Shown here: positions 27,593 to 45,290 of the stretch, piece by piece
How positions within the stretch are numbered: the first letter of the stretch is position 1
Layout of the letters: every line of letters starts with the position of its first letter
NCBI GenBank assembly: GCA_018883245.1
Contig: VEQL01000023.1
Span: 1-45,290, forward strand
Direction: 5' to 3'
Source: Chthoniobacterales bacterium
GTDB taxonomy: Bacteria > Verrucomicrobiota > Verrucomicrobiia > Chthoniobacterales > JACTMZ01
DNA length: 45,290 bases
Made by a program: the position numbers and the translations under genes
Notes under the pieces: model-generated
Told to the model about the DNA's origin: nothing
Databases searched by the model: none
The model's input: the letters and a program-made list of their open reading frames with translations, nothing else

Positions 27593-27631
27593 GATGCGGA
27601 ACTGGTCCGACAAGCCACTGAGAACTGCTGA

Positions 27632-28444
27632 TCAGCTAATTACCAGCACTTCACGCCGAGCGATAAGACCTTCGAAGTAAGTGCGCAGGCGTTTCACTTG
27701 GTGGCGATCCCGAAAGAGCACACCCGCCTCAATATTCCGCCGCTGAGCGGCAGCAGTGAAATTGGCTGACGTCACCAGTGCTGCGGCCTCGTCGATGATG
27801 ATGACTTTGGCATGCATGACTCCCCGTGTTTCCGGCTTCTCGGAGAATCCCCGCGGGTCGTGGTAGAGTTCGGGCACCCTCTCTCCGACCCAGCACATTT
27901 CGATAAACCTTTGGCGGAAGCGGTTGGCCGCGAGTGCCATTGGTTCGGTTTCGTCATGGCGTCCGTGGGTAACATCCACAATCAGACGAACTCGCAAAGT
28001 TAGATCGCTATCGTGTCGCTGAGCAAGCTCCGCGAAAAACTCCTCATCGAGGAAAATCACGTAACTACACACGATGACGTCACTCCGTGCTTCGCGGAAC
28101 AGGCTCCGGGCAACGGTTGCCGTATCGACAACGTGCACCCCGGGAACATCGGGTCCGCTTAGCACGAGATCCGTGCTGTCACGCTGCAATGCTTTGCTCT
28201 TTAGAACCCGGGCAAAAGCTTCACACATGTCGGCCAACACCCCCGTCGGACATCCGGCTGAGAAAGCGGCGGCCAGTGGCGGATAAATACGAGAGACTTC
28301 GGCTCCGACGACATTTTCAACCAGTCCGCGGGTGACCGATTGGCGTAATGGGCCTTCACGCAGGGCCACGGCTAGCGTGTCCAACACGCGGGGCGTGGAT
28401 GTGAGCAGGACTTCTAGGCTGGAGTCGTGCGACTCGGTGCTCAC
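27632..28444 (-). CDS. drmC: DISARM PLD-family nuclease DrmC
   Basis: A 270-residue phospholipase-D-like protein. The C-terminal HKD motif is intact: H211-x-K213-x4-D218 in MHAKVIIIDE, followed by LVTSANFT. The N-terminal half has a less conserved, probably second half-site (SDVIVCSYVIF). In class 1 DISARM, DrmC is the third core gene after drmA and drmB, and that is its position here. The start overlaps the drmB stop (ATGA at 28441-28444). DrmC was reported to be dispensable for protection in one DISARM system, so its exact role is open. Confidence 0.88.
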   Translation of the reverse strand: MSTESHDSSLEVLLTSTPRVLDTLAVALREGPLRQSVTRGLVENVVGAEVSRIYPPLAAAFSAGCPTGVLADMCEAFARVLKSKALQRDSTDLVLSGPDVPGVHVVDTATVARSLFREARSDVIVCSYVIFLDEEFFAELAQRHDSDLTLRVRLIVDVTHGRHDETEPMALAANRFRQRFIEMCWVGERVPELYHDPRGFSEKPETRGVMHAKVIIIDEAAALVTSANFTAAAQRRNIEAGVLFRDRHQVKRLRTYFEGLIARREVLVIS

Positions 28445-30261
28445 GGTTTGAAGAAAGCCGCGTTACCGCGATCGATCGTCGGCACGACCAAAGAACGATC
28501 GAGAAACTGGTTAAACCTCTCGCAGGAAGTCTCGGAGATAAATACGCACCCGTGGCAAGCGCTGCCGGAGAGCGAGCCGGCATCCTCATCTGCGTGAATC
28601 GAGCTGGAGCAAACCGGATCGTTGGAGCAAAGCGCCCCGAGTTCGAAGGCGCGAAGGGTATGCTTCCTGATGCTGCGTGACGCCTGCACCAGACTGCCAA
28701 GTGTTCCTTCCGCCCCGCTGGATGAGGTGTAGATCAGGATACCGTAGGAGTTGGCCATCTCCGCGAGGCCAAGCATTGGCGCGTAGATTCGCTCCCTGAG
28801 CGAGGAAAGAGGATAGCCGCATTCCAGGGATATAGCGCTGATGAGGAGGTGCGAAAAGGTGTGCAACATGATGTAAGCCGCTCCCGGGAACACCTGCTTG
28901 CTGTTGGGATGATTTGAGCGCCACAGCTGGAAAGACCGCTCCAACTCTTCGGCCCTTTGGATAACGGGGTCCGTGATCGCCCAAGCTGCGACCGCGTCTG
29001 CGCTGATCTTAAGAAACACGCCCTCACCGCGGTTTTCGACCGCTGGAATCCAATTGTTGTGCTTCGAGATCGCCGCCCTCTGCACATTAAGTTCCAACTC
29101 GCCCAGCAAATCGCTGGTAACCGGCTCAAATCTCGTGAAACCAATCAGAGCCGCCACCTCGCGCATCTTCTGCACCAGCACGACCTTCTCCAGTGCGGCG
29201 AGTCGTGGATCGTCCCACTTTGAGCGACTTAGTTCTCTGGCGAAGAAATCCCCCTCAGCCTTGTCACCAGCTGCTTCGCTGGACGATCCGCACAGGCGAT
29301 CGAACTCCAGTTCCTTGACTGGCTTTGCCACCGCGGAGACCGACTTGCCTTCGCGAATTGTCTGAATGACGGCGTAGACATCGCCATCGGACAGCTCGCC
29401 GAGCGCATTAGCCACGTCGGGCACGATGTCACGAGCCGTCCGCAGTTTTTCCAAGGAATCGATCTTACAAAAGTGGCTTTCCCACAAAGGCAGCACTTTC
29501 TCTTCGGCCTTGCTCATTGTGTCGGGGATCGAGATCACCGACATGACTTGAGCGAAATATGCGTTGCTCGCTGTGCGGATGAGCAGGCGGTTGTCCTCTC
29601 CGCAATTTTCGGAATCGAAATCAGCTAGCCATGGACGACTTCCATTGCATTTGCCCAAAGCGCCTTGATGCGTCGCCTCACGCACGCAGCGGTTCGCACC
29701 GCACTGGCAGACGATCCAGATGTCCGACAAATCTCCGGTTGTCCCACGCTCCTCCATCCACATGGGGAGAAAACACATGTCTTCCCCACGGTGGACGAAC
29801 GCTCGCCACTGGATGTCACCGACATGGCCCTTGCGACAGGCTCGCACGAAGCGCACAGGCACCACGGACCGGGCTTGGTCATCAACGAGGAATCTGGAAC
29901 GGTCGTTGAGTTCGTCTTTGTAGACCAACCTCCGTCTCTTGTGCTTGTTGGGGGAAAGCTCGACGTATTGCACGATAAACCAGTGAGGAAACACGTATCC
30001 TCCCACACCGGAGGGACGCTGGCCCTGCACAAAGACATTCTCCGGCGAAGGGGGCGGGCATTTCATCGGGAGAGACTTCCGCCCGAAAATTTTGCCGATC
30101 TTGGCCGAAAGCCTCGGCTCGATTACGTCGCAGACTTTGGAGTTGTCGTAAGACCACCGCTCCAAGCCCGCAACGATGATCGAGCTGGCCGGAAGGTCCA
30201 CCATCGAGCCGGGCCCGAAGGTGTGAATGAGTTGATTGGCGCGTAATTGCTGGCGGCTCAT
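28441..30261 (-). CDS. drmB: DISARM DrmB (DUF1998 protein)
   Basis: A 606-residue DrmB. The N-terminus RANQLIHTFGPGSMVDLP is characteristic, and the DUF1998 region carries MLHTFSHLLISAIS. A C-terminal Cys group (CSNDPVC, CHGC and a later Cys) probably binds zinc. DrmB forms a complex with the helicase DrmA that recognises and acts on incoming phage DNA. The gene overlaps both neighbours by 4 bases (ATGA), so translation with drmA and drmC is coupled. Confidence 0.93.
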   Translation of the reverse strand: MSRQQLRANQLIHTFGPGSMVDLPASSIIVAGLERWSYDNSKVCDVIEPRLSAKIGKIFGRKSLPMKCPPPSPENVFVQGQRPSGVGGYVFPHWFIVQYVELSPNKHKRRRLVYKDELNDRSRFLVDDQARSVVPVRFVRACRKGHVGDIQWRAFVHRGEDMCFLPMWMEERGTTGDLSDIWIVCQCGANRCVREATHQGALGKCNGSRPWLADFDSENCGEDNRLLIRTASNAYFAQVMSVISIPDTMSKAEEKVLPLWESHFCKIDSLEKLRTARDIVPDVANALGELSDGDVYAVIQTIREGKSVSAVAKPVKELEFDRLCGSSSEAAGDKAEGDFFARELSRSKWDDPRLAALEKVVLVQKMREVAALIGFTRFEPVTSDLLGELELNVQRAAISKHNNWIPAVENRGEGVFLKISADAVAAWAITDPVIQRAEELERSFQLWRSNHPNSKQVFPGAAYIMLHTFSHLLISAISLECGYPLSSLRERIYAPMLGLAEMANSYGILIYTSSSGAEGTLGSLVQASRSIRKHTLRAFELGALCSNDPVCSSSIHADEDAGSLSGSACHGCVFISETSCERFNQFLDRSLVVPTIDRGNAAFFKP

Positions 30262-33200
30262 GGCGTTGGTTGCGTTCCGATCGGTGACTTCTCCGGCATG
30301 ATGTCCACCGGCGTTTCAACCTCGCGCATCGAACGGTTGGCGCGGAAGCGAAGATAAATTTCTTCCTTCGAGGTTAGCTCGTGATCGAGGAAGTCGCGAA
30401 GTAGCACCGAGGAACTTACCCGGTCCTCATACTTTTGGTAATTCAGGTCGACGCCTTGGGCGGCTTGCTCTCTTGCGATTTGGCACCAATCCGCCAACAG
30501 GGCTTGGGCCTGATCGTCAACGCGGTCAGCAATCTCTTGAAGCTCGGCAGACGAGAGACTCGCGTCGTGGGCTGCGGCTCGAGCAGCAAAGACACGCACG
30601 ATTTCCTGTAAATCGGCATAGTATTGCTCGACTGCTCCAGCTCCAAGGTAGGGCTCTAAACGCATAATGCTATGACGGCAAAGCCCGACCAGTGCACCCG
30701 CCAAAGCGCGATCGAGTGCTCCAGGCGAGAACGGCGTGACGCTGGTTGATTCGACACTGCGGTAAAAAGTTCCGTGGTAGTGGGAAAAGCGCTCATAATG
30801 CGAACGGTCCCGGGGCTTGTGCGGGTTAAGCAGCGTGGCAACCAGTCCAGGCTTGTCGCGCAAGCGCCCGACACGGCTGGTGGCCTGAATGTATTCCGAA
30901 GTGGTCTTTGGTTGACCGAAGACGACCATCAAGCCGAGGCGACCAATATCAAGACCCACGGAGATCATGTTGGTTGCCAGAGCCATGTCCGTATGGCTTG
31001 GGTTATCGAAAGCCAGCGCCAGTTCGCGCCGCGCCCTGGCAATCTCGTCCGTTTCGACGCGAGAGGTCAGTTCAAGCGGCGTGCGTTTGATAGTCCGCGA
31101 GCAGAAGAGTTTGTCTTCGGGTTCGCGCCGCCGTCTCTTCCAATAGATCTGCAACCGCGAAGTGATTTCGTCCTCGGCAATACGGCGACTGCCACCCAAT
31201 TCACGCAAGCTGTTGAAGTAAGACAGCAGCGACATGTAGGGGTCCGCGGGATTATCGGCAGACTTTCCGCCCGCGGCGCGATAGAGAACCTCGCACCCAG
31301 AGAGGAGAGCCAGACAGGTTTTGAGGTAAGCCACCTTCATGCTGCGGCCTTGTGCTGCGATACCAAGATAGAGACGACCGGGATCCTTCTCGGTGACCGG
31401 CACCGTGCGGGCGAAGAACGAATCGTTGCGATCCGGTCCCTGCGGGGGAAAGATCGAGGTGCTTTCGCGGCCGAACAGGGCACGTATCTGCCGCGCCGCC
31501 TGACGAACCGTCGCCGTGGAAGCCACGATCTTGGGCACCTGTGTCTTGCCTTCTCCCAGATCCCGCTGGCAAAGCTGCTCGATGACCGTCTCGTAGATCC
31601 CGGCCACGGTGCCGAGTGGTCCGGAAATTAGGTGCAACTCGTCCTGGATGATGAGGTCCGGGGGCAACAAGGAACGATTCGGCAGGGGCTTACCTTGGTT
31701 GGGGTCGCATGGTCCGAAGAATCCCTTCTTGTCGTCGTAGCGCTCGACCTTGCCAAACAATGCACCGGAGCGCCCTGTCCACGGGAGCGCGGCAAATTTG
31801 TCCACCGTCGCGATCAGAAAGCACGGCAACCGGCGATAGATCGGCTCATCTACGCCGACAATTGGCAAGCGAGCGCCACGGGCCGCGGAAAACTCACACC
31901 GCATATTGTGGCAGGCGACCAAAAGATTATCTGGATTCCGTGACCCCGGAGGATCGAGCTGAAAGGAATCGGGCACAAACGGTGTTCCGCACCATGGGCA
32001 CTCCTCCAGCGGGATCGGCGAAGAGTATTTCGCGGCGTTGTTGTGAAATTGCGTCAGCTTGGAATACGCCGAATTAGCCGCCCCCGGTGAAGTGTCATTG
32101 GCTCTCCCCATGCGATTGGGTGTGGCCGCCGACCCGACCCAAAGCCCGATTTCGAAGGGCCAAGTCCCCAGTTGCTTGTTCTTCTCGCGCTCCATTTCCA
32201 GCGCGCACATGAGGGCTGCGGCGCGGCCGAGCTGGTCGAGGGTCAGCAGGCGCAGTGTGTAGCGCATGATGATCGACACGCCGGCCGAAGCGATGCCCGG
32301 ATTTTTCAGACGCCGGAGGACGAGGGTGAAGGCTGCGAGTCCAAGGTAGGCCTCGGTCTTGCCGCCGCCGGTCGGGAAAAAGAGAAGGTCGACCGTCCTC
32401 CGATCCCAGTTCGCCGGATCGTCCATGCCGCGGAGATTCATGAGCAGAAAGGCCAACTGAAAGACGCGCCACTTTGGTCGGTCCACGTCCTTCGGATCCT
32501 TACTTTGTTGCACCGCAAAGCGCTGCCGCGCTGCCCGAGCCATGGCCCGGTTGGCGATGCGGAATGCTTGAAGACAAGACGGATTGTTTGGGTCCTTGAG
32601 CGTCTCGATACCGGCCTCGATCCGCTCGGATGCCGTGTTGGCAAGCTGAAGCAAATCGTTGGCCGTCTCCCGCTGGGAATCCGTGAGCGATTCGTGCGCG
32701 AGGCTGTTCCTCTGCTGCTCAATCCAGCCTCGGTAGCTTGCCACCAAGCCACCGAGCTTGACCTGCACTTCATCCGGAGTGGCCATCTCAGCCAGAGCTT
32801 CCATACCAAGTTCCACGTCACCTATCGTTTCCGATCCGGCGTGATCCATGCGCGGAACCTGTTCCATCGGGATAAAAGTCGTGCGCGCTAAGCGACAGAC
32901 ACCATCCAGGCCGAGTTCAGTTTCGACCGAGACGCCGTGCCCAACCGCATATTCCAGCGCATCGCGATAGTGGAGGTCAGCGATACGGTCGTCCGCGTCA
33001 GCCTCCAGTCCGCGGGCTGCACCGCGCAGATCGGGCCGACCGAAGAAACCCTTGGCCGTCTTGAGTTCGAGTTCAGCTTGGAAAACGGTTTCCTTGTAGG
33101 TCACGCGGCCTGACGTAGGGCGATCATTCACCAGAAACACCGAAACGGTGCGGGTGCCGTCGGGAATACCGTTTGCGGCCAGTCCGTGGAGCGCTTGCCA

Positions 33201-33872
33201 GCTACCCACAACCTTGAGCCCTACGCTGTTGGGCAGGTCCAAGTCAACACGTCCGCTGTCACCCTCGAGGATCAATGTCGTTTGTTCCTCGCGCGACTCG
33301 CGCCGGAAACCCTTCCACTGGCCTTGGTCGCCCTTCGTTTCCTCGGCTTTACTGACCTCGTGCTCTACCAACGCCAAGTCTTTCGCCAATTCCTCCTCGT
33401 AAGCCTTATCGATGACTTCCTCATCGACCTCCTTCTCGGAGGCTTTCCCGCCGGATTTCTCCACGTAGTAATCGCCCCAGCGGCAGGTCACTTCGATTTC
33501 GTTCTGCCCAGGAGGTAACATGACACTCATCCCCATCGAACACGCCAACAGGCTTGTCTCCGCCACTTTGTCCGTAGCATCGCCTTGATCGTCGCCTTCC
33601 TTCTTGAAGCCTTGCTCTTCTTCAAGTTCCTCGTCCTTGGAAGCGCGGTGCTCGCTCGATCCCTTGCGCGGAACGAGGAAGCCCGTGAGATACCAACGTC
33701 GCGGCGACTGCGGGAGCAGCTCGTGCGCGAAGGCGTGAGTATTTGATGGCCCGACCAGATCGAGGAGCAAAGCTTCAACAAGCTTCTTGCGAATATCCGT
33801 CGCGCTGGCCCCGGCCAGAGGCGGCGCTTCGGGCGGCGCGGCCTGATATTCGGGGGGTTTGCGTTTGGCCAT
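30258..33872 (-). CDS. drmA: DISARM helicase DrmA
   Basis: A 1204-residue superfamily-2 helicase. FFPTGGGKTEAY is motif I and IIQDELHLISGPLG carries DELH. ISVGLDIGRLGLMVVFGQ and SEYIQATSRVGR are the motif V and VI region. A Cys pair set (ECPWCGTPF, CHNMRCEF) is inserted between motifs and may bind zinc. The N-terminal third is acidic and is probably a DNA- or partner-binding part. The ATG at 33872 was preferred. A TTG 27 bases upstream would overlap abiEii by 16 bases. Its stop overlaps the drmB start. Confidence 0.93.
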   Translation of the reverse strand: MAKRKPPEYQAAPPEAPPLAGASATDIRKKLVEALLLDLVGPSNTHAFAHELLPQSPRRWYLTGFLVPRKGSSEHRASKDEELEEEQGFKKEGDDQGDATDKVAETSLLACSMGMSVMLPPGQNEIEVTCRWGDYYVEKSGGKASEKEVDEEVIDKAYEEELAKDLALVEHEVSKAEETKGDQGQWKGFRRESREEQTTLILEGDSGRVDLDLPNSVGLKVVGSWQALHGLAANGIPDGTRTVSVFLVNDRPTSGRVTYKETVFQAELELKTAKGFFGRPDLRGAARGLEADADDRIADLHYRDALEYAVGHGVSVETELGLDGVCRLARTTFIPMEQVPRMDHAGSETIGDVELGMEALAEMATPDEVQVKLGGLVASYRGWIEQQRNSLAHESLTDSQRETANDLLQLANTASERIEAGIETLKDPNNPSCLQAFRIANRAMARAARQRFAVQQSKDPKDVDRPKWRVFQLAFLLMNLRGMDDPANWDRRTVDLLFFPTGGGKTEAYLGLAAFTLVLRRLKNPGIASAGVSIIMRYTLRLLTLDQLGRAAALMCALEMEREKNKQLGTWPFEIGLWVGSAATPNRMGRANDTSPGAANSAYSKLTQFHNNAAKYSSPIPLEECPWCGTPFVPDSFQLDPPGSRNPDNLLVACHNMRCEFSAARGARLPIVGVDEPIYRRLPCFLIATVDKFAALPWTGRSGALFGKVERYDDKKGFFGPCDPNQGKPLPNRSLLPPDLIIQDELHLISGPLGTVAGIYETVIEQLCQRDLGEGKTQVPKIVASTATVRQAARQIRALFGRESTSIFPPQGPDRNDSFFARTVPVTEKDPGRLYLGIAAQGRSMKVAYLKTCLALLSGCEVLYRAAGGKSADNPADPYMSLLSYFNSLRELGGSRRIAEDEITSRLQIYWKRRRREPEDKLFCSRTIKRTPLELTSRVETDEIARARRELALAFDNPSHTDMALATNMISVGLDIGRLGLMVVFGQPKTTSEYIQATSRVGRLRDKPGLVATLLNPHKPRDRSHYERFSHYHGTFYRSVESTSVTPFSPGALDRALAGALVGLCRHSIMRLEPYLGAGAVEQYYADLQEIVRVFAARAAAHDASLSSAELQEIADRVDDQAQALLADWCQIAREQAAQGVDLNYQKYEDRVSSSVLLRDFLDHELTSKEEIYLRFRANRSMREVETPVDIMPEKSPIGTQPTP

Positions 33873-33883
33873 GAGGTAAACGG

Positions 33884-34777
33884 TTATTCGGCCGGCCAAT
33901 GCTTCCGCAAAGCTGCGGCCAGATTCTCCAGTGTTGCGACAGATCGGGTGAAATCAAAAGCCGCAAATGTGTCGGGACGCAGCACCGGGCGCAGTTCGCC
34001 CTCGATCAGCCGCTGAAAGGTCTCGAGGCGTTCCGCCGCGAGCCAATCCATGTCCTTTTCCATCGCGACCTTGCGGGCGGCCAGACGAAGGAACTCCGCG
34101 TCCTCCCAATCAAGCACGCCCTCCTGCACGGCATAATCGAGATCGAACAAATCCCGCGGCGCCGGCTCGTCGCGCGTCAGCGCCGCCCGCACCTTTTCTG
34201 CATACGCTTCCTCGCGGGACAGGCTCGCCGCCATCACGGGCTGCACACCCTCTTCGTCGAAGAGCGGATCCCGCAACAAGGTGGCCAGCGGCACCGCAGC
34301 AATCTCACGCATCGGTTCCTCGCGCTGTCCGACCTCCAACTTGATCGAACCCTCGCCGCCGAACACCGAGGGATACCAGAGCGTGATGCGATGCTGGGTC
34401 GAGCTGTTGAAGCTCTGCCATCCTTTCTCATCGGTCCGCAGCAATCCGACCGTTGCTGTTTCCACCAACGCACCGACTTCCCGCGCCCGCTTGCTGCGCA
34501 CTCCGCGGGTGATGCCCGGCGCGGTCGGCAAGGTGAAATCCAAATCCTCGCTCATGCGATTGAAGGCCACGTAAGCCTTGCTCAGCAAGGTGCCGCCTTT
34601 GAACACCAGCGGACATTCCTCCGTCGCGTAGAGCCGTCCAAGCACGACCGAGCACCAGAAATCTTTCTCGACCAATGCCGGTTGGAATCCGGTTTTCGCC
34701 GCGGTGAACTCCACCGCCGCCTGCAATTCGCCGCGGCTGCCGAGCCAGCGCTCGAGCGATGGCATCCACTCACTCAT
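33884..34777 (-). CDS. abiEii: AbiEii-type nucleotidyltransferase toxin
   Basis: A 297-residue AbiEii/AbiGii-family protein. The nucleotidyltransferase signature is complete: FKGGTLLSKAY followed by MSEDLDF, matching GS/GG-x-SEDxD with the catalytic acidic residues. Type IV AbiE toxins act on phage infection by blocking growth of the cell. The ATG overlaps the abiEi stop by 8 bases and has a strong GGAGGT site 6 bases upstream, better than most genes here. Its stop lies 11 bases before drmA. Confidence 0.92.
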   Translation of the reverse strand: MSEWMPSLERWLGSRGELQAAVEFTAAKTGFQPALVEKDFWCSVVLGRLYATEECPLVFKGGTLLSKAYVAFNRMSEDLDFTLPTAPGITRGVRSKRAREVGALVETATVGLLRTDEKGWQSFNSSTQHRITLWYPSVFGGEGSIKLEVGQREEPMREIAAVPLATLLRDPLFDEEGVQPVMAASLSREEAYAEKVRAALTRDEPAPRDLFDLDYAVQEGVLDWEDAEFLRLAARKVAMEKDMDWLAAERLETFQRLIEGELRPVLRPDTFAAFDFTRSVATLENLAAALRKHWPAE

Positions 34778-35579
34778 CGAGCCACCTCCGGTCGTTCACG
34801 ATGATGCCCCAGTTGCGCAATGTTGATCCCTTCGTGCCGCGCCCCGGCACGAGCGGAATGAAAGTCCGCACCGGCGACACCGCGCGTTGCAGCTTGCGCC
34901 GCGCCACGGCACCCGCATCCAGCAATTCCATCACCGCACCAATGCGCCGGCAGGTGCCCGCATCCCCATGTGCCACGGCGCACGCCGCCAAGTTGTCGAG
35001 AAAGCGAGGTTCGTCTTTGCGCTCGCGAATCCAACGGTAAGCCGCGGGCAAAGTCCCGAAACGCGCCGCATCGTAAACCGCATCCATGATCACCCGCGGC
35101 AAAGATCCCACGCGCCGTTGCGGCAGCGCTTTTTTGTCCAGCGCGCCCAAGCGCTCCGGCGCCACCTCGATGAATTGAAAAGGCAGCCCGCCGATCGTGC
35201 GGCGCCCGGTGAAGAGCGTGTTGTAAACCGTCATCACATTGGCGACCTGGTCGGTCAGCCCCTGGTATTGCAATGCCCCGAGTCCGGTCTCCTGATAGTC
35301 ACCGCCTTTCGCGTCGAAAAGATGACGCAGGATCACGTCCGGCGGCACCGACCAACGTCCGCCCGGCGGAAGTTTCGGCGGCAGCAACCACAGGCCGCGT
35401 TGCAGCAGAATCGCCAAGCCCTTGCGGTTCAACCGCGTCATGAGCTGGCGCACTTGATCCGTAGTCAGACGCAAAGCGGCACGAATTTCCTCATTCGTGG
35501 CCCGCTCGATGCCTCGCATTTGGACCCAAGCCAAAAGCCGGCTGATCGACGGGCCGAACTTGATCGATTGGGATTTCAT
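34770..35579 (-). CDS. abiEi: AbiEi-type antitoxin/transcriptional regulator
   Basis: A 269-residue AbiEi-family protein. The N-terminal winged helix (about 10-65) contains TNEEIRAALRLTTDQVRQLM. The larger C-terminal domain (about 75-265) is the part that serves as antitoxin in this family. AbiEi proteins are known to repress their own promoter through inverted repeats, and one is present at 35592-35612. The ATG at 35579 was chosen. A TTG at 35615 would add 12 residues and run across that repeat. Confidence 0.9.
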   Translation of the reverse strand: MKSQSIKFGPSISRLLAWVQMRGIERATNEEIRAALRLTTDQVRQLMTRLNRKGLAILLQRGLWLLPPKLPPGGRWSVPPDVILRHLFDAKGGDYQETGLGALQYQGLTDQVANVMTVYNTLFTGRRTIGGLPFQFIEVAPERLGALDKKALPQRRVGSLPRVIMDAVYDAARFGTLPAAYRWIRERKDEPRFLDNLAACAVAHGDAGTCRRIGAVMELLDAGAVARRKLQRAVSPVRTFIPLVPGRGTKGSTLRNWGIIVNDRRWLDE

Positions 35580-35591
35580 ACCACTCTTCTT

Positions 35592-35612
35592 AAAGATTTT
35601 TTTGGAATCTTT
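35592..35612. promoter_or_regulatory. Inverted repeat before abiEi, possible AbiEi operator
   Basis: AAAGATT (35592-35598) and AATCTTT (35606-35612) are perfect 7-base arms around a 7-base spacer. They lie 13 bases upstream of the abiEi ATG. AT-rich sequence further upstream could hold a promoter (a TATAAC-like box on the minus strand), although the -35 is weak. It lies in the only sizeable gap inside the defence operon. Confidence 0.5.
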
Positions 35613-35695
35613 CAATGGAATGTTATAAAATGCTTTGCGTTTCCTTGAACACTGTTATTCGGGCGGAGTGGATCCCGCCAACCGAAACAGAGCCT

Positions 35696-37246
35696 TTAGC
35701 GCCTCCTGTGCCGGGGACGCTGGGTTGGCGCAGACTCTTCAAATCTTTGCAAATGATACTCAAACTGTTGATCAACGAAATCCTTGTCCGTGGTCATGTA
35801 ACTGATCTCTTCTCTGAACTGTCTTTTCTTGTCGCCCTTGAATGACATCCAATTGAAGCTCCCGGCCACCGCAAACGTGGAGTCCATCAGGAGCAGTTTG
35901 GCGTGGGTGTTGCCCAGCCTTACCAAATGAAGGGTCGGATATTTGCGGCTGAGTTCCTTAAGCTCTTTATAGGCTCTTGTGTCTTCGGGATCCTTGTCCT
36001 TGCCCGCCCTCCTATCGTTTGTATCGTCGATTCCGTAGCCGATGTAGACTTCAACGTTTCGGGAAGCGAGGACGTGAATGGCCTCTATCCGGCGGTCGTT
36101 CATGACATCGTCGGAAATCCACGGCGAAACCAGCATCATTCTCTTGGAGGTGTCTCTCAAGGCTCGATCGAGCACCGCGGGATGCTCGTATACAGTCAGC
36201 CTGCGCAGATCGGTCTTGGATTGCTGCTTTTGCACCACGGCTAGCTGCTCTCTCAGTTGCTCGACTTCTTTTTTCAATGACTGAGCTTCCGTTTCAGTCT
36301 CGGGATCCTTCAGCTTTTGCTCCGCCTCGCCAATCTTGGAGGCAAGCAGCGTGTTGTCCCTCGCTGCCTCTTCGGCTTTCCGCTTGGCAGCCGGAGTGAT
36401 CCGTTGTTCGGCCGCAATACCGGCGCTGACAAGGGGATCTTTGGCCAGATGAGCCAGCGCTTCGCGAGAATCGTTGATTTGCCTCGGCAAGTTGAGCCTC
36501 TGGACGCCTCCCTTCTTGGTGAACGCCGCATCGATTTCAGGCAGCGGCCTGCCATGAACCGAGAAAAAGGAAACTTTCAGGTCCTCGCCACTGGAGCCTT
36601 TGTAAACAAGCATTCGTGCCTCGCGAAAATACTTCTGCCGCTGGCCAATACGTTCGAGCGACAACACTTGGTGAATGCGCGACCTCTTTCGTATTTGCGA
36701 GGGAATGCATGAATTGAAATCCTGGGCTCGCAACGTCTCGTCGGTAGGCGGCGTTCCAGGCAGAGGGGGAACCTCGACCAAGCCCCACGCCTGAATTTCT
36801 TTCGGCCTCCTCAAGACCTCTCCGCCCCTCGGTAGAGTTATGAGATGACGCGAAATTCCGTCATAGAGGTAAGCGAGAACCTCGCGCCGCGCCGTCTCTT
36901 CTCTAAGGGTGGAGAGAGATTTGACCCCCTTTGCTGTTAAAGACAAGGAAGCTCCGCCCGCCCCTGCCACACGCCCGTAGAGCACACAATCGGAAGACAT
37001 CAGGCCGCTCAATCTACGACGCAGAAACTTCTCGTTGAGCCCAAGGAATCCACTTAACTGAGATACGGACGAGAGACCTGCGCCGATGCTGCGCAAAATA
37101 AACTCATCAACGAGCGCGACTTCCTTTTTGGCAATGACAAGTGCTTCGACCTCAATGCGCCAAATAGGCAAAGCCACTTCGGCTACATCGATCAAGGTGT
37201 AGCCCGGCACGCTTGAATGTCGCGCGGCAATTTCTTCGGTTGTCAT
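35696..37246 (-). CDS. mkoB: PLD-family protein of a Mokosh-like pair (MkoB-like)
   Basis: A 516-residue protein. A winged-helix-like N-terminal region (about 35-115) is followed by a middle domain of unknown fold, a coiled coil (about 285-350, rich in Glu, Lys and Gln) and a C-terminal PLD domain. That domain has one clear HKD motif (H448-x-K450 in THAKLLLMDS, then VAGSFNW). With a single motif it probably works as a dimer. The start overlaps the kinase-helicase stop by 4 bases (ATGA). A helicase plus PLD pair matches the published type I Mokosh defence system. The match is by architecture, without a database search. Confidence 0.75.
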   Translation of the reverse strand: MTTEEIAARHSSVPGYTLIDVAEVALPIWRIEVEALVIAKKEVALVDEFILRSIGAGLSSVSQLSGFLGLNEKFLRRRLSGLMSSDCVLYGRVAGAGGASLSLTAKGVKSLSTLREETARREVLAYLYDGISRHLITLPRGGEVLRRPKEIQAWGLVEVPPLPGTPPTDETLRAQDFNSCIPSQIRKRSRIHQVLSLERIGQRQKYFREARMLVYKGSSGEDLKVSFFSVHGRPLPEIDAAFTKKGGVQRLNLPRQINDSREALAHLAKDPLVSAGIAAEQRITPAAKRKAEEAARDNTLLASKIGEAEQKLKDPETETEAQSLKKEVEQLREQLAVVQKQQSKTDLRRLTVYEHPAVLDRALRDTSKRMMLVSPWISDDVMNDRRIEAIHVLASRNVEVYIGYGIDDTNDRRAGKDKDPEDTRAYKELKELSRKYPTLHLVRLGNTHAKLLLMDSTFAVAGSFNWMSFKGDKKRQFREEISYMTTDKDFVDQQFEYHLQRFEESAPTQRPRHRRR

Positions 37247-40200
37247 TGGATTCCCTCCTTGATCGCACAGGTCTCGGGATTGGCTGCAATGTGGGTCAGC
37301 ACCTTTCCGAAAGATGGCGCCGCAGTGAGATTGGCGCAGAATGCAGAGTCGCCGACGATGAGCAAGTAGTCCCGCGCACGCGAAAGCGCGACGTTGATAC
37401 GCCGTTTGTCAGTGAGAAACCCTGGTTTGCCAGAGTTGTTCGAACGTGTGACCGAGAAGATAACAATGTCGGCTTCCCGACCTTGATAGTTGTCCACTGT
37501 GTGGCACTCGAGATGAAGATTGTTTAGACGCAAACTGTTGAGTTTGCCGAGAATGTGGTCCCGCTGTGCCGCGTAGCCCGAGAGGACGGCAACGTGCGGC
37601 TTACTGCGCACCCCCTTCGAGTTTCCGCAGACAAAATCGATCCTCTCGAGGAGTTTGGCTATCCAACGCGCCTCGAGAACATTCAGGACGCTCGTTCCGG
37701 ACTGCTGCTCGCGACGACCGTCCTCACCGGAGGTGGAGAACCATGTCACGGGCTTTGGTATCGCGATGGAAAGATCGACACTGCTCTCCGTCCTCACGCT
37801 CTCCAATTTGCCCTCGTAAAAGACTTTGCTCACCAAATCGCCGATCGCTGGCATCATCCGGTGCTGCCGCGTAAGGATCGACTGGCAATCCTCAGGAATG
37901 TTGTGCTCGAGCAATCTCTCGAGAAGGGTCTGCTCGAAGACATCCATGCTGACTTCGTTTTCTTCGAGGAATCTGCGATTTCTGAACTGCGCGTCGATGA
38001 AGGGTGAAAGCTGCAGGCGGTCTCCCACCAGGATCCATTTGGAGCAGCGTTTCAGCGGGACGAGCGCCTCCGTCACGGTCGCTTTCGAAGCTTCGTCCAA
38101 AATACACAAACCAAACTCGTCCTCATCGGCCAAAGACGACTCCACACCGATGCAGGTCCCGGCAACGACATCCGAATCAGCCAAGATCGCACCTTGACAG
38201 TCCTCTTTGAGGAAGAAGCGCTGGATCCATTCGGAACTCAACTCGAACAGTCTGCGGAACTTGGCAGTTCTTTCATCCTCTCCGGAAAGATCTTTCTGCC
38301 ATACCGCCAGTTCAGCGTCCGGCAATTCGGCCAGCTCAGCCCAATCCGGATGCATCTTGATAAATTTTTCTTTGTTGGACCGCATGATTTTCGAGCGCTC
38401 CTGACGCATTTTGCGGCGCTCCTCCAAGTCCATCTCCACCTGTTGCAGCTCGGCTCGTTTCTCATCAGCAGCTTCTCCTTGGCACCGCGGCACACCGTTT
38501 TCATCGGCGTCGTCCAGCTCGTAACGAAGAACACCGGCATGCTCCGTGAGCGCGTCCTCGGCCTCCTGAACTTGCTTGAGACTCTTGCGGTCAGCTAGCA
38601 GCAGTGAGAGACCAAGCCATAATTGTATTTTTGCTATGTCTACGCCCTCTGACTTCGCTGTTTCTTTCAGGAAAGAGGCAGCCTGCTCCCTCACCCGCTT
38701 ACTCCACTCCTCCACCCGCTTCTGCAGCAGATAGCCTTGCGCCGTCTCCGACACCTTCTTTTCCGCATATCCGATGCGCACGATTTTCAGATCCGGGCGA
38801 AGTTGCGCCACGCGCTCGATGGCATTATCGACGGCAAGGTGCGTCTGTGATGTGACCAGAATCCTTTTTTCCGGCCACTTCTTGAGGTGTTGCAGGATCA
38901 ACTCCGCGATGAAGGTTGTTTTGCCCGTGCCGGGGGGACCTTCCACGACGAAGAGATCGTTAGCCGCGAGAGCCTTTGAGATTGTCTCTCTCTTGTTCTC
39001 GTCGATCTGCGGGTTGAACCATTTGGGCGCCTGGGTCGGCACGGCCGCGGCTGTGCAGCCGGCGGGATTGAGAATGAGCGCCCGGAGCCGGGATGCGTTC
39101 TCGGCCTTGGGATCACGGATTGCCTCAAGAGCTTGCTGTTGCTTTCTGATCTGCCGCTCGGTCGCACCCGCGTCGATTGTCAATCGTCCCTTTTTATTCT
39201 TCGGAGCGGTGTAATCCTCGCCCAGCGGCAGAAGGGTGAGAGACCTTTCTCCCACAGACTCGACGAGGCCGGAAACTTTAGACCCGACGACTTTCCAGAT
39301 CTCCTCGATTTCGTTTCCGTCCGGATTCTCTTCCAACTGAAAGGTGATCCGATCGCCGTCCAGCTCGTAGCCGGAGTAGTGGTAAGTGCGCCCTTTCCGA
39401 CTGTGATCGAGGCGCAAGTCCAAAACTTTCTTCCAGGTCCAAAAGAACTCCTCGGCTTTCTTGCCTAGCCGGTCGCTGGCGATTCGCCGCTCGTGGTCAT
39501 CAAGCGCTTCCTCGAGAGCTTCGATGAACGACTTTCCTGCAGATCGGTTGGCCCATTCACCGGCTTGCAGCTGAAAAGGCGCTGACCACGCCTTGTTTCT
39601 CGATTGCTCGAGTTGGTCAAAGGAAGAGTCGCGATAGCACGCGAGAACAAGGAGCTTGGCCCGGGTCTCGTCATCCGCAACGACCATGAGAGTGAGCGTC
39701 TCACCGTAGAATCTGTATCTATGGGGCGTCCTCCCGCGCGGTGCACCATCCCTACGCGCGTCCTCTTTCATCTTTTCTATGCAAGTGATCTCGGTGAAAT
39801 CCCTCTCCAGACGCTCGCATACTTGAGCGGCGCTGAGGCGTTCTCCGAAAATGGCGCGCAAGTCGGCTTCAGCTTTCTTGGTCAGGATGAAATGGCATGT
39901 TTTCTTCGGCTGTTGTTTTTGTGCATCGGCCAAGGCATTGCGCAGCTTCGACTGCAGCACCAAGGCGCTCCCCGGCCGTTCATTGGCATGCTTGGCCAGG
40001 CACTCCTCGATAACATCCCGCACATTTGCGGGGGCTGTGCAAAGCTTCAGGGCGGAGTAGAGCTGGTCCCAAGTTTCAACCTTCAGGCCGTCCATGAAGG
40101 CGATGGCAATCGCGCCGAACGCAAACACATCCGTCGCGTATGAAAAGTTGGCATCGTAGCCATCAATCGGCGCGAAAGGCTGCTTGTCCTTGAGAAAGGC

Positions 40201-40716
40201 ATCGATATCCAGCTCGGTGTCGAAGAACTCGGGAAACTTGGCGATGCCGAAATCCGCCAGACGGATGCGCCCGTTGTCATCGCGCAAAATGTCCGACGGC
40301 TTCAACTCGCGGTGGACTGTTTCCCGCGAGTGGGCAAACGCCAATGCTTCGAGCAGCGGCCTTCCGATCTCCGCGTAGAAATCGTCCCATTTTACCCGTC
40401 CGGGCCTGTTCTTTTTCCACCAATCCCCGATAGGGTCTCCCGCCCACTCGAGGACCAAAAACGGCCGGCCGCTCTCTTTGTCGATCCCGTAGTCGAGCAT
40501 CTTGACGATGTTCTCGTGCATCAGCTCGACAAGACGCCGACTCTCCCGATCGAAGCTCTCACGGATCAGGGCATCGTCCGGCATGCCGTTGCGGAAAAAC
40601 TTAACTGCCACCACTCTGCCGTCTCCCTGCAGGTCGGATGCACGATGGATGTCGGCAAACCTTCCGGCTCGCGGGTTGGCCATCAGTGCATAGCGGTCGT
40701 TGATGATCGTAGGCAT
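37243..40716 (-). CDS. mkoA: Protein kinase - superfamily-1 helicase fusion (MkoA-like)
   Basis: A 1157-residue protein. The kinase-like domain (1-265) has K39 (VAVKFF) and DFG at 155-157. Its catalytic loop is HRE at 135-137 instead of HRD, and the glycine loop is poorly formed. Residues about 274-375 look like a RelE/ParE-type fold (FILTKKAEADLRAIFGERL). The helicase part starts near 560. Walker A is GPPGTGKT (593-600), motif II is ILDEASKA, and motifs V/VI include YQGREADIVIFS and NVALSRARDYLL, as in COG1112/DNA2-like enzymes. The combination with a PLD gene fits type I Mokosh. It starts 12 bases after drmMI. Confidence 0.8.
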   Translation of the reverse strand: MPTIINDRYALMANPRAGRFADIHRASDLQGDGRVVAVKFFRNGMPDDALIRESFDRESRRLVELMHENIVKMLDYGIDKESGRPFLVLEWAGDPIGDWWKKNRPGRVKWDDFYAEIGRPLLEALAFAHSRETVHRELKPSDILRDDNGRIRLADFGIAKFPEFFDTELDIDAFLKDKQPFAPIDGYDANFSYATDVFAFGAIAIAFMDGLKVETWDQLYSALKLCTAPANVRDVIEECLAKHANERPGSALVLQSKLRNALADAQKQQPKKTCHFILTKKAEADLRAIFGERLSAAQVCERLERDFTEITCIEKMKEDARRDGAPRGRTPHRYRFYGETLTLMVVADDETRAKLLVLACYRDSSFDQLEQSRNKAWSAPFQLQAGEWANRSAGKSFIEALEEALDDHERRIASDRLGKKAEEFFWTWKKVLDLRLDHSRKGRTYHYSGYELDGDRITFQLEENPDGNEIEEIWKVVGSKVSGLVESVGERSLTLLPLGEDYTAPKNKKGRLTIDAGATERQIRKQQQALEAIRDPKAENASRLRALILNPAGCTAAAVPTQAPKWFNPQIDENKRETISKALAANDLFVVEGPPGTGKTTFIAELILQHLKKWPEKRILVTSQTHLAVDNAIERVAQLRPDLKIVRIGYAEKKVSETAQGYLLQKRVEEWSKRVREQAASFLKETAKSEGVDIAKIQLWLGLSLLLADRKSLKQVQEAEDALTEHAGVLRYELDDADENGVPRCQGEAADEKRAELQQVEMDLEERRKMRQERSKIMRSNKEKFIKMHPDWAELAELPDAELAVWQKDLSGEDERTAKFRRLFELSSEWIQRFFLKEDCQGAILADSDVVAGTCIGVESSLADEDEFGLCILDEASKATVTEALVPLKRCSKWILVGDRLQLSPFIDAQFRNRRFLEENEVSMDVFEQTLLERLLEHNIPEDCQSILTRQHRMMPAIGDLVSKVFYEGKLESVRTESSVDLSIAIPKPVTWFSTSGEDGRREQQSGTSVLNVLEARWIAKLLERIDFVCGNSKGVRSKPHVAVLSGYAAQRDHILGKLNSLRLNNLHLECHTVDNYQGREADIVIFSVTRSNNSGKPGFLTDKRRINVALSRARDYLLIVGDSAFCANLTAAPSFGKVLTHIAANPETCAIKEGIQ

Positions 40717-40728
40717 GGGTTGTGTCGT

Positions 40729-43700
40729 CTAAATAAGTTCAAGATCCTGTTGGCCGGACGACGCCTTGGCTTTTGGCTTTGCTTTCTTTTGCTTTGTCGC
40801 TTTCGGCTTCTCCATTCCCGGGGCGAGGCCGGCGGCGACTTCTTCGGCGTGGCGTTGGGCGTTGAGGGCGAGGAGGCGGGCGAGGACTTCGTCGCGCACT
40901 TCGTCGGGCCAGCGGTAGCGCCACGGTTTTTTCTTTTGCCGGCCGTGGCCGGTGTCGTTGCTGTTCTCTTCTTCCTCTTCGTAGTCGAGCAGGAATTGGC
41001 AATCGGTCGGGATGTCGCTCCATCCGTAGGCATCGAGCACGGCGCGGTCCATCGCGGCATGAAGTTCGCGGAGTTTTGTGATGTCGGGCGATTGCTCGTC
41101 GGGGTCGTGGAAGCGGTTGTAGGTCTTGGTAAGGCCTTCGTTGTTGCGCACCATCAAGTCGGCGCGGAACTCGTAGTAGCGCTTGCCGGTTTGCTCTAAG
41201 GAATCGCTGGCATCCCAATCTGCGGGGAAAGCGAAAGTTTCGAAGCAATCGGACGGGGTGTAGCGTTGGCGATCTTCTAATGATGAAGCAAAAAACCTTG
41301 TCCACGTTTCGTGACTACGACATTGAAGAATCGCAAAAGCAGCCCATTTGCTTGTTGTGAAGCCAATCAGCGACTGAGAAAGAATTCTGCCCGCTTTCAC
41401 CTTGGAAAGTGCAAATGTGCTACTGGTCTTCGCGATACAAAAAATAGATCCGTTTTGCTCGAGGAATTCGTGCAGTTGTGATGATGGATAGTTGAACTGC
41501 CACCACTTCGTGCTTGCTTGTCCTTCCGCAGATTTGGCTGTCAGCGAATGCCGATACGGCAGAACTTTGTCTTCGAGAATTCTAAATGCTGCCGGCCACT
41601 TCTCCGCATCTGGCTTCTCCCAATTAGAAAAGTAGATTGCGTATTTGGGAGCCGGCTGCTGGTCATCGTAAAAATAATCAACTGATATGATTTGGGGTAT
41701 CACGCGTTCGTAGCTCGGGTCTTCCTCTAGGATTTTTTCGCGTAGAGAAACCGGCGACGCATCGTCGTTCGCGTCGTCAAATAAGAAGCCATTGCCTCGT
41801 AATACACAGCCCTGGAAAGATGTGAACGAGCGATAGCCCGCAATGTGTTTTGGGTCTTCGTCGATCGGAAAGTCTTTTAAAAATGCACTTATTCGTCTCA
41901 CGACGACTCCGTCGAGGATTGGTTGAATTTGCAGGATGCCCTTGGACACACAGACGGTAGAAACCTGAACCGCAGCATCCCCAGGCCAAGGCACGCGCGA
42001 TCTGGCTGCATAGATTTCTCCGCGCATAAGAGAAATCTGCGTGAGTCCTGAATAGCGTGTGTCACCTTGCGCAATGGTATTGGTAGCAATTAATCCAAAG
42101 CATCCATTGTCTCTCAAGAGAGCAAACGCAGCTCGAAAAAAGAATGCTACGAGATCACACTTGCCAGAAGTGGCCGGGATAATTGCTCGGAGGTAGTTAG
42201 GATAATTTGTGTGGTTTCCTAAAGACAAAGAGTAATGCCCTGCAAACGGTGGATTTCCCACGATTGCATCAAACCCAGGGTTCGCTCGTGAGAAGACCTC
42301 TGGAAACTCGATCTCCCAGTGAAACGGCCGAACCGGATGTTGCCCGCCATAAAGCACGTTGAGCGTCTCGACTTTCCACTTGAGCTGCTGCGCATCTCCT
42401 TTAAGCAGCTCGAGGTAGTTCTGCAAATATTCATCGCGCAGTTGCTGTCGTTCCCGCGGTTTGCTGCCAGCAAAGAACGCGGCAATAACAAGATCGCCGA
42501 TATGGCGCAACTGTTCCGCAGCACCATCCGCCGCTACGAGGAAGTCCCGTTTCTTCAGCACCGCAGCCTCTGTGTCCTCGGGAAAATCCAAGATGCGTTT
42601 GCGCTCTTCAGACACCTTGGAGATCTGTGCCTCGAGTTTGTCCTGCCCGAGCACGCGGTCTTTGGCTGCATCGAGATCCCAGTGGAACGCAGCAATCTGC
42701 TTGTTGGTCAGTCCGACGAGCGAATCTCCGCACTTGATCGCATGATCGAGAAAAGTGAACGGATGGTCCTTGGCCATAGTGGCGAGCCAAAGCGAGAGCT
42801 TGGCCAGATCGACTGCCATCGGATTGCGATCTACCCCATACAAACAGCGCTGTGCGATGAGCCGCCGCGCATAGAGCAGTTCATCCTCATCCGGCGGAAT
42901 CCTCGGAACGCATTTGTGGAAATGCCACGAGGCGACCAGTTCGTCGGCCAGCTGACGCGCTGTTTCAACGAGAAACGCTGCGGAACCTACTGCAATGTCG
43001 GCTACTTTGAGATCAAGGATATCCTCGGGCTTGGGATGACGCCCCAACCGATCGAGCACCGGCTCGAGCGTCTTGCGCACGATGGGTTCGGTGAACGACC
43101 GCGGCGTGTAATGTGAACCAGAACGTCGGCGTTCATCGGTCGGTTGCAGAATGATCGATCCCGCGGCCACAGGATGAGGTGTGGCGCGCACGTCAATGCG
43201 CTTGCCCAATGCCGCCAACAATTCCTCGGCGGTGCCTGCATCCTTCAATGCCGTAGCGGCTTTGTCCGCGATCTTGGCATCGGCCACCTCGGCCAGAAAC
43301 TTGGCGCGGTCGGCTGGTTTGCTTTCGAGCAAAGCCTCGAGGGACACATGCACCGGCGCGCCGTGGGCCTTGGCCGGCTTGAGTGCAATCATGCGAGCCG
43401 GCGCCTTCTGCACCTCAAAGCCCATGATCGTCTCGTAAACAGAGCCAATCTGTTCCACATCGAGCGTGCGGTAACTCAGGCGCTCGCCATCTAGATACAG
43501 CAGCAAATTGAGGATGCGATAGATGGCCCCGTCGGAGAGCCGCGGCAATTGCTCGGGCAAGGCATCTGTCCTCGATGCACGCCCTTCGAGGTATGGATAA
43601 CGGTCGTAATCGAAAAGATGCCCGCGGCGGGCAGGCAATCGCATGGAGGGATGCCGCGAGCCTTTGTGCACAGCACGAAAAAGCGTGAGCAAACGCGGCC

Positions 43701-44724
43701 AAGCAACGAAGCGATTATCCATCGTGTCCGGGTGCTGTTGATGGTCCGCCCGTAGTTGGTCGAAGAGTCCACCGACAGAATAGTTGCGCTGGTAAAGTTC
43801 ACCGGAAGGCATGAGACCGCGGTCCTCGGCGTAGAGCAGGAAGACGAGACGCAGCAGTGTCGAGACGAGGCCGCCGTAGATTTCCTGCGGATCACGCTCC
43901 CAGACAGCGGAGAGCAGCTGCCCGTTGGATTTCTCATCGGCGGCTTGGAAACCGCGGGCCAATTCGTAGAGCGCCTCGAGCACTTGGCCGGATAGCTCGG
44001 TTGAGACATTGGCTTGGTAGTCGCGGCTGCGCTTGAGCAAATCGGGAAGACGCACGCCCGCGGGCACAGTGATCAAGCGACGATGCGAAAGCAGCATCTC
44101 GAGCGCCACCGCAGCCACGCGCCCGGGCAAGTCGGCAAGAAAGCCGATCGGAAAAGTGATCGAACCGGCGTTCTCGCCCTTGGGCACATAGACGAGACGG
44201 AGTTGGTCGCCATTGCAAAGAATCCCGATGGGCACACCCGTCTCGCGCAACAAACGCTCGAACTTCTGCTGCGGCGTGGCCGACCATCCGCGGGTGCTCT
44301 CCGGCACCGCATCGAGGTCGGTGCCCGGCGGAAGTTGTTTCGCCAGAAGGAGCCACGGGCTCTGGTCCTCGGCAGGCTGAAAGAAACGGTAGGCCGCAGT
44401 AGGAGCGAGCAACTCTCCCTCCTCGCCCGTGCTGACCTTGAGCGCATCAGGCACTTCATCGGAAACCGAGAAAATCGAGAGCAGTTCGTCCTCCCATCCC
44501 AAGAACTCACGAGCGAATTTGACGAAGTCCGCAATGACCGGCCGCCCATCAATTTCATCGAGACTCTCCAGCAAGCGCGCATGGATTGCATTGAGCTGGC
44601 CCTGATCGATCTGCACCTGCGAATCCACCAAAGCCACCGGCGAAACCACCAATCCCTCTGGCTGCAAATACCCCAGCCAGCGCTGATGCTCGGAGATGGC
44701 GATTTTGCGGGGATCGGCGCTCAT
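40729..44724 (-). CDS. drmMI: DISARM class 1 adenine methyltransferase DrmMI
   Basis: A 1331-residue Eco57I-like N6-adenine methyltransferase. Motif I is DIAVGSAAFL (about 578) and motif IV is NPPF with N824. The C-terminal region (about 830-1150), downstream of the catalytic NPPF, is expected to hold the target-recognition part. The DNA there is clearly lower in GC than the flanks. The last 100 residues are basic and Lys/Ala rich. It should methylate a host motif so that self DNA is spared. The ATG at 44724 overlaps the drmD stop (ATGA at 44721-44724). A longer upstream frame exists but lacks support. Confidence 0.92.
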   Translation of the reverse strand: MSADPRKIAISEHQRWLGYLQPEGLVVSPVALVDSQVQIDQGQLNAIHARLLESLDEIDGRPVIADFVKFAREFLGWEDELLSIFSVSDEVPDALKVSTGEEGELLAPTAAYRFFQPAEDQSPWLLLAKQLPPGTDLDAVPESTRGWSATPQQKFERLLRETGVPIGILCNGDQLRLVYVPKGENAGSITFPIGFLADLPGRVAAVALEMLLSHRRLITVPAGVRLPDLLKRSRDYQANVSTELSGQVLEALYELARGFQAADEKSNGQLLSAVWERDPQEIYGGLVSTLLRLVFLLYAEDRGLMPSGELYQRNYSVGGLFDQLRADHQQHPDTMDNRFVAWPRLLTLFRAVHKGSRHPSMRLPARRGHLFDYDRYPYLEGRASRTDALPEQLPRLSDGAIYRILNLLLYLDGERLSYRTLDVEQIGSVYETIMGFEVQKAPARMIALKPAKAHGAPVHVSLEALLESKPADRAKFLAEVADAKIADKAATALKDAGTAEELLAALGKRIDVRATPHPVAAGSIILQPTDERRRSGSHYTPRSFTEPIVRKTLEPVLDRLGRHPKPEDILDLKVADIAVGSAAFLVETARQLADELVASWHFHKCVPRIPPDEDELLYARRLIAQRCLYGVDRNPMAVDLAKLSLWLATMAKDHPFTFLDHAIKCGDSLVGLTNKQIAAFHWDLDAAKDRVLGQDKLEAQISKVSEERKRILDFPEDTEAAVLKKRDFLVAADGAAEQLRHIGDLVIAAFFAGSKPRERQQLRDEYLQNYLELLKGDAQQLKWKVETLNVLYGGQHPVRPFHWEIEFPEVFSRANPGFDAIVGNPPFAGHYSLSLGNHTNYPNYLRAIIPATSGKCDLVAFFFRAAFALLRDNGCFGLIATNTIAQGDTRYSGLTQISLMRGEIYAARSRVPWPGDAAVQVSTVCVSKGILQIQPILDGVVVRRISAFLKDFPIDEDPKHIAGYRSFTSFQGCVLRGNGFLFDDANDDASPVSLREKILEEDPSYERVIPQIISVDYFYDDQQPAPKYAIYFSNWEKPDAEKWPAAFRILEDKVLPYRHSLTAKSAEGQASTKWWQFNYPSSQLHEFLEQNGSIFCIAKTSSTFALSKVKAGRILSQSLIGFTTSKWAAFAILQCRSHETWTRFFASSLEDRQRYTPSDCFETFAFPADWDASDSLEQTGKRYYEFRADLMVRNNEGLTKTYNRFHDPDEQSPDITKLRELHAAMDRAVLDAYGWSDIPTDCQFLLDYEEEEENSNDTGHGRQKKKPWRYRWPDEVRDEVLARLLALNAQRHAEEVAAGLAPGMEKPKATKQKKAKPKAKASSGQQDLELI

Positions 44725-45290
44725 GATTTCTCCGGCCAGAGGTAAACGAGTCCCACGGGTTCGATGCGGTGGGATTTGACGGTGTAGAAATCGCGGATGC
44801 GTGCCGGCTCGCGGGCCAAGTCTCCATCGACATTGTCGAGCCACTCCTGCCAGTAGCGGATGTCAGCTTCCTTCTGACGCTGTTCGTCGTCATTGAGGCC
44901 AAGCTCTTGCTGGCGCCAGTTCTTGTTGCGGTCCAATTCCTTGAGCACGCGCTTGCGCTGGTCTTCGAGCAGCTTGATCAGTTCTTTGGCCTCGCCCTCA
45001 CCGCGGGCGCCGAGCTTTTCCACCACTTCCTTCATGATTTCCTCGGCACGCGGCTGCAGGTGGGATTGCAGTTCCTCGATATCCTGCGCGATCGAGGACG
45101 AGATGCGTTTGAGCACATCGGCCGGAGGTTCTTTCTGTTGACCCGGGGCCAAGTGCTCGCGCAGGAGCTGCATGGTGCGCGCCTCGTCATCACGACCGTG
45201 CGGCGTTAAAGGACCGTTGCGCTTGTCGGGCGGAGTCCAGCGAGCCGTGACCGTCAGGATCTCCTCGTGCAGGCGTGATGCACCCGGTCC
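44721..45290 (-). CDS. drmD: C-terminal part of DISARM class 1 helicase DrmD (gene continues beyond the window)
   Basis: The frame stays open from its TGA at 44721 to the window edge, so the 189 visible residues are only the C-terminus. The helicase motifs would lie outside. The visible part is helical and charged: LKRISSSIAQDIEELQ and later KELDRNKNWRQQELG suggest a coiled segment, and a final TVKSHRIEPVGLVYLWP strand region follows. The position before drmMI, with an ATGA overlap, and the class 1 order support the DrmD (SNF2-type) call. The name depends partly on context. Confidence 0.75.
   Translation of the reverse strand, partial: GPGASRLHEEILTVTARWTPPDKRNGPLTPHGRDDEARTMQLLREHLAPGQQKEPPADVLKRISSSIAQDIEELQSHLQPRAEEIMKEVVEKLGARGEGEAKELIKLLEDQRKRVLKELDRNKNWRQQELGLNDDEQRQKEADIRYWQEWLDNVDGDLAREPARIRDFYTVKSHRIEPVGLVYLWPEKS

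Follow-up and report, generated by a model that had tools for sequence, protein, structure and literature searches.

A recurrent cargo slot between drmMI and drmA in class 1 DISARM operons, occupied by Mokosh and AbiE genes in a Chthoniobacterales contig

Results

The stretch of DNA analysed here (the window) is an entire contig of 45,290 nucleotides, VEQL01000023.1, from the 2.9 Mb, 84-contig assembly GCA_018883245.1 of a Chthoniobacterales bacterium. It carries a class 1 DISARM (defence island system associated with restriction-modification) operon in which a type I Mokosh pair and an AbiE pair lie between drmMI and drmA. Comparison with other class 1 loci reveals that the window is no one-off: cargo recurrently fills a slot at the drmMI-drmA joint.

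The loci compared came from a profile search of the window's phylum and from one scan of GTDB with a DrmMI alignment, and 86 further loci were examined. The GTDB scan supplied the best 80 of 559 matches, those nearest the window's clade, and the insert rate applies to that part of class 1 DISARM. Joints were measured between genes defined by blastp, and a joint was called filled when it held an insert of more than 300 bp. The drmMI-drmA joint is filled in 41 of 59 loci (the interval has a median of 1.9 kb and reaches 9.0 kb), compared with 7 of 75 at drmD-drmMI (Fisher p = 3e-13), 1 of 52 at drmA-drmB (p = 7e-15) and 0 of 31 at drmB-drmC (p = 2e-11), with loci treated as independent in these tests. 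Grouping the loci by drmMI at 60% identity leaves the same pattern, with drmMI-drmA filled in 26 of 33 groups and the other joints in 2 of 30, 1 of 30 and 0 of 18, respectively. The drmA-drmB joint is nearly always tight, its median being a 4 bp overlap. Among annotated complete plasmids, nine records had a readable drmMI-drmA joint: in five it is filled, and in the four compact ones the genes overlap by 4 bp. One more record stopped short of drmA.

Inserts were also observed, less often, at a second site, drmD-drmMI (L117, L118, L129, L138, L147 and L169, most of them cyanobacteria); those of L169, an annotated plasmid, consist of genes on the opposite strand. Separately, in L177 (NZ_CP155757.1, 108964-132833) a compact DISARM operon itself splits a type I-E CRISPR-Cas locus: cas3 lies upstream of DISARM on the other strand, and the genes from casA on lie downstream, after drmB.

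A class 1 DISARM operon interrupted by four genes

The operon runs on the minus strand from 45290 to 27632 in the order drmD, drmMI, mkoA, mkoB, abiEi, abiEii, drmA, drmB, drmC, with every open frame at the position originally predicted. Genes were named from PADLOC and Pfam profile matches, which are strong for all except AbiEi (moderate, 5e-20). The features are as follows.

44721-45290, minus strand: drmD, C-terminal 189 amino acids only, the contig ending within the gene (PADLOC DrmD 3.8e-28, profile positions 859-1036 of 1040)
40729-44844, minus strand: drmMI, adenine methyltransferase (PADLOC DrmMI E = 0 over 50-1363; Eco57I/MmeI methylase Pfam matches)
33873-40728, no strand: cargo slot, the 6.9 kb drmMI-drmA interval with Mokosh and AbiE, the same interval being filled in other class 1 loci
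37243-40716, minus strand: mkoA, fusion of a protein kinase and a superfamily 1 (SF1) helicase, large subunit of type I Mokosh (PADLOC MkoA 1.8e-205, profile 5-1108 of 1112)
35696-37246, minus strand: mkoB, phospholipase D (PLD)-family protein, small subunit of type I Mokosh (PADLOC MkoB 1.7e-62)
35616-35695, minus strand: mkoB-abiEi intergenic gap of 80 bp, read from the sequence, with the AT-rich stretch TTTTATAACATTCC
34770-35615, minus strand: abiEi, antitoxin, likely start ATG at 35579 (PADLOC AbiEi 5.5e-20; 8 bp overlap with abiEii)
33884-34777, minus strand: abiEii, nucleotidyltransferase toxin (Pfam AbiEii PF08843 1.3e-26, above the cut-off; PADLOC 2.4e-25)
30258-33899, minus strand: drmA helicase, likely start ATG at 33872 (PADLOC DrmA 2e-277)
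28441-30261, minus strand: drmB, DUF1998/MZB protein (PADLOC DrmB 2.8e-75; MrfA Zn-binding domain)
27632-28444, minus strand: drmC, PLD-family protein (PADLOC DrmC 4.9e-58)

The original prediction of a class 1 DISARM operon with a Mokosh-like pair and AbiE inserted between drmMI and drmA is upheld by the open frames, by gene order and by the defence-system profile check that it had called for, in which PADLOC matched DISARM, Mokosh and AbiE genes. The drmA, drmB and drmC core is present, and all five genes follow the class order drmD-drmMI-drmA-drmB-drmC; the window differs from that order in the 6.9 kb insert that parts drmMI from drmA. The drmD fragment shares 53% identity with the C-terminal end of DrmD from L088, and the N-terminal part of the gene was not found elsewhere in the assembly. 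Counted from an upstream GTG, drmMI encodes 1371 amino acids, and its real start may be the ATG at 44724. DrmMI has the motif NPPF at 864 and a rare motif I, DIAVGSAAF, which is identical in one other compared DrmMI and is DPAMGSGAF in most. DrmA carries the class-typical motifs MRYTLRLLTLDQ and QDELH, and DrmC has the HKD motif HAKVIIID.

Most junctions are as tight as had been claimed: drmMI and mkoA are spaced by 12 bp, mkoA and mkoB overlap by 4 bp, abiEi and abiEii by 8 bp, and drmA-drmB and drmB-drmC by 4 bp each, while abiEii ends 11 bp before the drmA ATG at 33872. The claim does not extend to mkoB-abiEi, the sole loose joint of the operon, which measures 80 bp if abiEi starts at the TTG at 35615 and 116 bp if it starts at the ATG at 35579, the more likely of the two. 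From this layout, a single transcript for the whole operon is plausible. A chimeric contig of this metagenome-assembled genome, with the four genes joined to DISARM by misassembly, is an alternative; the data are a single assembly, in which the contig end cuts drmD. However, the cargo is closely joined to DISARM at either end (12 and 11 bp), and dozens of independent genomes, as well as complete plasmids, have inserts of similar size in this joint, so that this already unlikely explanation is extremely improbable.

Just downstream of drmC lie a DDE transposase fragment (26005-26358, 117 amino acids) and a DUF3293 gene (26870-27613), where a mobile or defence island may have its border.

The slot holds diverse defence genes

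Cargo was identified by direct profile scans in some loci and assigned by clustering in others, and a recognised defence family is present in about 33 of the 41 bounded slots, or about 23 without the HTH-IrrE group described below. Some cargo families recur across distant hosts. GmrSD-type enzymes were found in five loci (L162, L104 and L131 by direct scan, L117 and L141 by clustering), and DarTG in three loci with a partial match in a fourth, the direct scans giving DarT and DarG in L128, DarT in L106 and DarG in L111. Direct scans also identified Menshen NsnA and NsnB plus PDC-M30 in L114, PDC-M36A with a PRTase-type effector in L097, and the families PDC-M66B (L112), PDC-S39 (L038), PDC-S02 (L090) and PDC-M56A (L103), together with IetS (L143), PARIS-like AriA/AriB (L147), reverse transcriptase UG19 (L108), SIR2-STAND (L134) and HEC-01A-like ATPases (L120 and L138). 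Clustering had suggested the last two ATPases to be NsnB-like, which the direct scan ruled out in identifying them as HEC-01A-like OLD ATPases. A class II prokaryotic Argonaute (pAgo) gene with a SIR2 partner lies within class 1 DISARM at L039:5699-8796. HATPase genes whose C-terminal region matches the spbK profile occupy L041 (direct scan) and L037, L038 and L040 (clustering), and this region may be TIR-like judging from the match. In L106, L108, L111 and L143, drmA lies beyond the available sequence; the cargo is downstream of drmMI and the drmA-side boundary is unseen. Several cargo genes had no profile match in the libraries searched.

HTH-IrrE genes like CapH/CapP or RmrA were found in L142 by direct scan and in ten more loci by clustering, mostly alphaproteobacteria, and this group is possibly a clade-specific accessory gene. 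Among the loci whose slot contains such a gene are L130, L133, L142, L144, L145, L150, L157, L161, L163 and L166, mostly alphaproteobacterial; no drmC was detected by blastp in these ten, and in six there is, in addition, a family of about 172 amino acids, of which the one member scanned had no profile match.

Cargo open reading frames (ORFs) of at least 120 amino acids are co-directional in 92 of 111 cases and are often packed within tens of bases. The original prediction had proposed a search of other class 1 drmMI-drmA intervals for a kinase-helicase, PLD and AbiE cassette. None came to light: by blastp, no second Mokosh- or AbiE-filled slot was found in the 59 other loci, in a search that a diverged AbiE could escape. 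The same result argues against the four genes being regular DISARM members, as none was detected in those intervals.

Cargo appears to turn over among related operons, and compact and filled loci coexist within drmMI groups of more than 60% identity. For example, L093 and L095 have a 44 bp joint and L178 has a 480-amino-acid gene in the joint, their drmMI genes being 88% identical; sequence similarity resumes at the drmA start, and no target-site duplication was seen in this comparison. Mobile-element signs at the window slot amount to short, imperfect repeats, none flanking the slot. Cargo exchange by recombination through the conserved flanking genes is a possibility.

The Mokosh pair

Both large genes of the cargo match Mokosh profiles over their length, in agreement with the predicted kinase-helicase/PLD pair. 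MkoA has Pkinase and AAA_11/AAA_12 Pfam domains and intact helicase motifs (Walker A GPPGTGKT and DEA), and the adjacent MkoB has an intact HKD motif, HAKLLLMD...GSFN (HxKx4D...GSxN). The pair resembles type I Mokosh in this kinase-helicase and PLD composition and in its 4 bp overlap, which most plasmid relatives share, and differs in its kinase loop (see Discussion) and in being embedded within another operon. No close MkoA relatives were found in 388 genomes of the window's phylum at E <= 1e-60, where the profile search returned mainly partial helicase or kinase matches, and the viral contigs searched had no MkoA relative. In two rhizobial Mokosh-like pairs (L083 and L085) the third gene encodes a PP2C phosphatase and MkoB lacks the HKD motif; these are perhaps a separate Mokosh variant.

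One alternative hypothesis is that the cargo consists of DISARM effectors, with DrmAB recruiting an embedded nuclease, here MkoB, that replaces or supplements DrmC. DISARM can do without DrmC, and DrmAB has been proposed to recruit a different PLD nuclease (PMC9142583); MkoB would suit this role as a PLD-family protein with its HKD motif intact, and several filled alphaproteobacterial loci have no detected drmC. However, drmC is present in the window with an HKD motif, MkoA and MkoB occur on plasmids as a stand-alone pair without adjacent DISARM, and most other cargo is not PLD, all of which makes this hypothesis quite improbable.

The AbiE pair

Profiles and gene order likewise support the predicted AbiEi/AbiEii assignment. 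As in other AbiE systems, abiEi is followed by an overlapping abiEii whose product has nucleotidyltransferase motifs (KGGTLLSK...SEDLDF and RDLFDL); AbiEi has no Pfam match, and the window pair differs in sitting inside DISARM. A sigma-70 consensus scan of the cargo, gap included, gave no minus-strand promoter above threshold, terminator counts in the cargo were at chance level, and RNA folding of the mkoB-abiEi gap was not unusual (z -1.3).

The AbiE genes could instead serve as an addiction module, keeping the operon or its mobile element stable, and be no defence layer. AbiE is a toxin-antitoxin pair, and DarTG, another such pair, also occurs in the slot. Most slots, however, hold defence systems of other kinds, and the window slot has no marking element or repeats around it, and we regard this role as unlikely.

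Discussion

We propose that the drmMI-drmA boundary of class 1 DISARM is probably a tolerant slot for co-expressed, independent backup defence modules, here Mokosh and AbiE. The DrmA-DrmB complex has been solved and shows the DrmA C-terminus wrapping DrmB, and DrmAB responds to unmethylated DNA (PMC9142583). In the proposed mechanism, DrmMI would methylate host DNA, and DrmAB would sense and act on unmethylated DNA, as is known from Serratia DISARM. The drmMI-drmA joint is where the half for modification (drmD-drmMI) borders on the half for restriction (drmA-drmB-drmC). The drmA-drmB and drmB-drmC joints would stay closed because of translational coupling between their genes and because DrmA and DrmB belong to a single complex; selection that keeps the drmA-drmB coupling would leave drmMI-drmA as the tolerant place, which could open harmlessly. 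Sharing transcription with DISARM, Mokosh would act through its helicase and PLD protein as an independent layer when DISARM is blocked or evaded, and AbiE, a nucleotidyltransferase toxin restrained by AbiEi, would be a further backup layer.

Several observations weigh against this explanation. The slots of different loci have unrelated contents, which do not point to one shared logic of cooperation. The drmMI-drmA joint is short in 18 of 59 loci, and the cargo is therefore dispensable for DISARM. The MkoA kinase has the catalytic loop HRELKPSD in place of HRDLKPSN, and all six plasmid relatives compared have HRD...N. Protein kinases that lack the catalytic Asp and the metal-binding Asn are usually badly impaired. 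Because HRE...D replaces HRD...N, the kinase may be weak or dead, and with its loop altered the Mokosh layer may not function here in its usual manner; an intact HRD...N loop is not known to be required for membership of type I Mokosh. Finally, a single transcript is less sure for AbiE because a gap of at least 80 bp precedes abiEi. AbiE is the part of the operon likeliest to have its own promoter, of the kind that AbiEi antitoxins bind, and this promoter may lie in that gap, in which case the AbiE transcript would not be shared.

The main rival explanation is neutral hitchhiking, in which defence genes land widely and survive at drmMI-drmA as the least damaging place, with no functional link to DISARM. 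The unrelated cargo and the frequent compact loci fit this explanation, as do the opposite orientation of 19 of the 111 cargo ORFs and the GC content of the AbiE genes (0.61-0.63), unlike that of mkoAB (0.54-0.57). However, recognisable cargo is mostly defence genes rather than random genes, it is mostly co-directional and tightly packed, and GmrSD and DarTG recur in the slot across distant hosts. We consider hitchhiking possible but less likely than not. A stronger version of the tolerant-slot proposal treats class 1 DISARM as a modular chassis with drmMI-drmA as its dedicated docking place, at which backups with a functional coupling to DISARM are exchanged, some of them triggered by DISARM-blocking phage proteins, in the manner of PARIS, which is triggered by Ocr. 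This version, too, is possible but less likely than not.

With the tolerant slot, an odd locus becomes a rule: new or cooperating defence genes of class 1 DISARM can be sought in the drmMI-drmA interval, and slot genes without a profile match are candidates for new systems. The existence of the same core with and without cargo also makes the layering of systems that share one operon testable. No description of a drmMI-drmA slot was found in open-access papers, in a search that reached few subscription journals and not the original DISARM paper. The nesting principle is already known; what appears to be new is the slot in class 1 DISARM and its occupation by Mokosh and AbiE.

Two known cases bear the closest comparison. 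ShdA (Shield) has about 70 homologues embedded in DISARM-like operons in Pseudomonas, another defence gene in such a setting; in the parts of that report consulted it is one gene family confined to Pseudomonas, no general slot is reported and the joint is not named (PMC10270631). Backup effectors inside BREX (bacteriophage exclusion) operons have been described at scale in a paper that does not mention DISARM (NAR 2026, PMC12839542), and the type IV enzyme BrxU occurs with BREX (PMC8565348). As in BREX, a modification-based operon holds foreign defence modules at a preferred place in its core, recurring across lineages, and GmrSD-type and PARIS-like cargo is common to both. DISARM differs in being another core system and in having its slot at one particular joint, and what it carries goes as far as complete systems of several genes (Mokosh, AbiE, DarTG and pAgo-SIR2).

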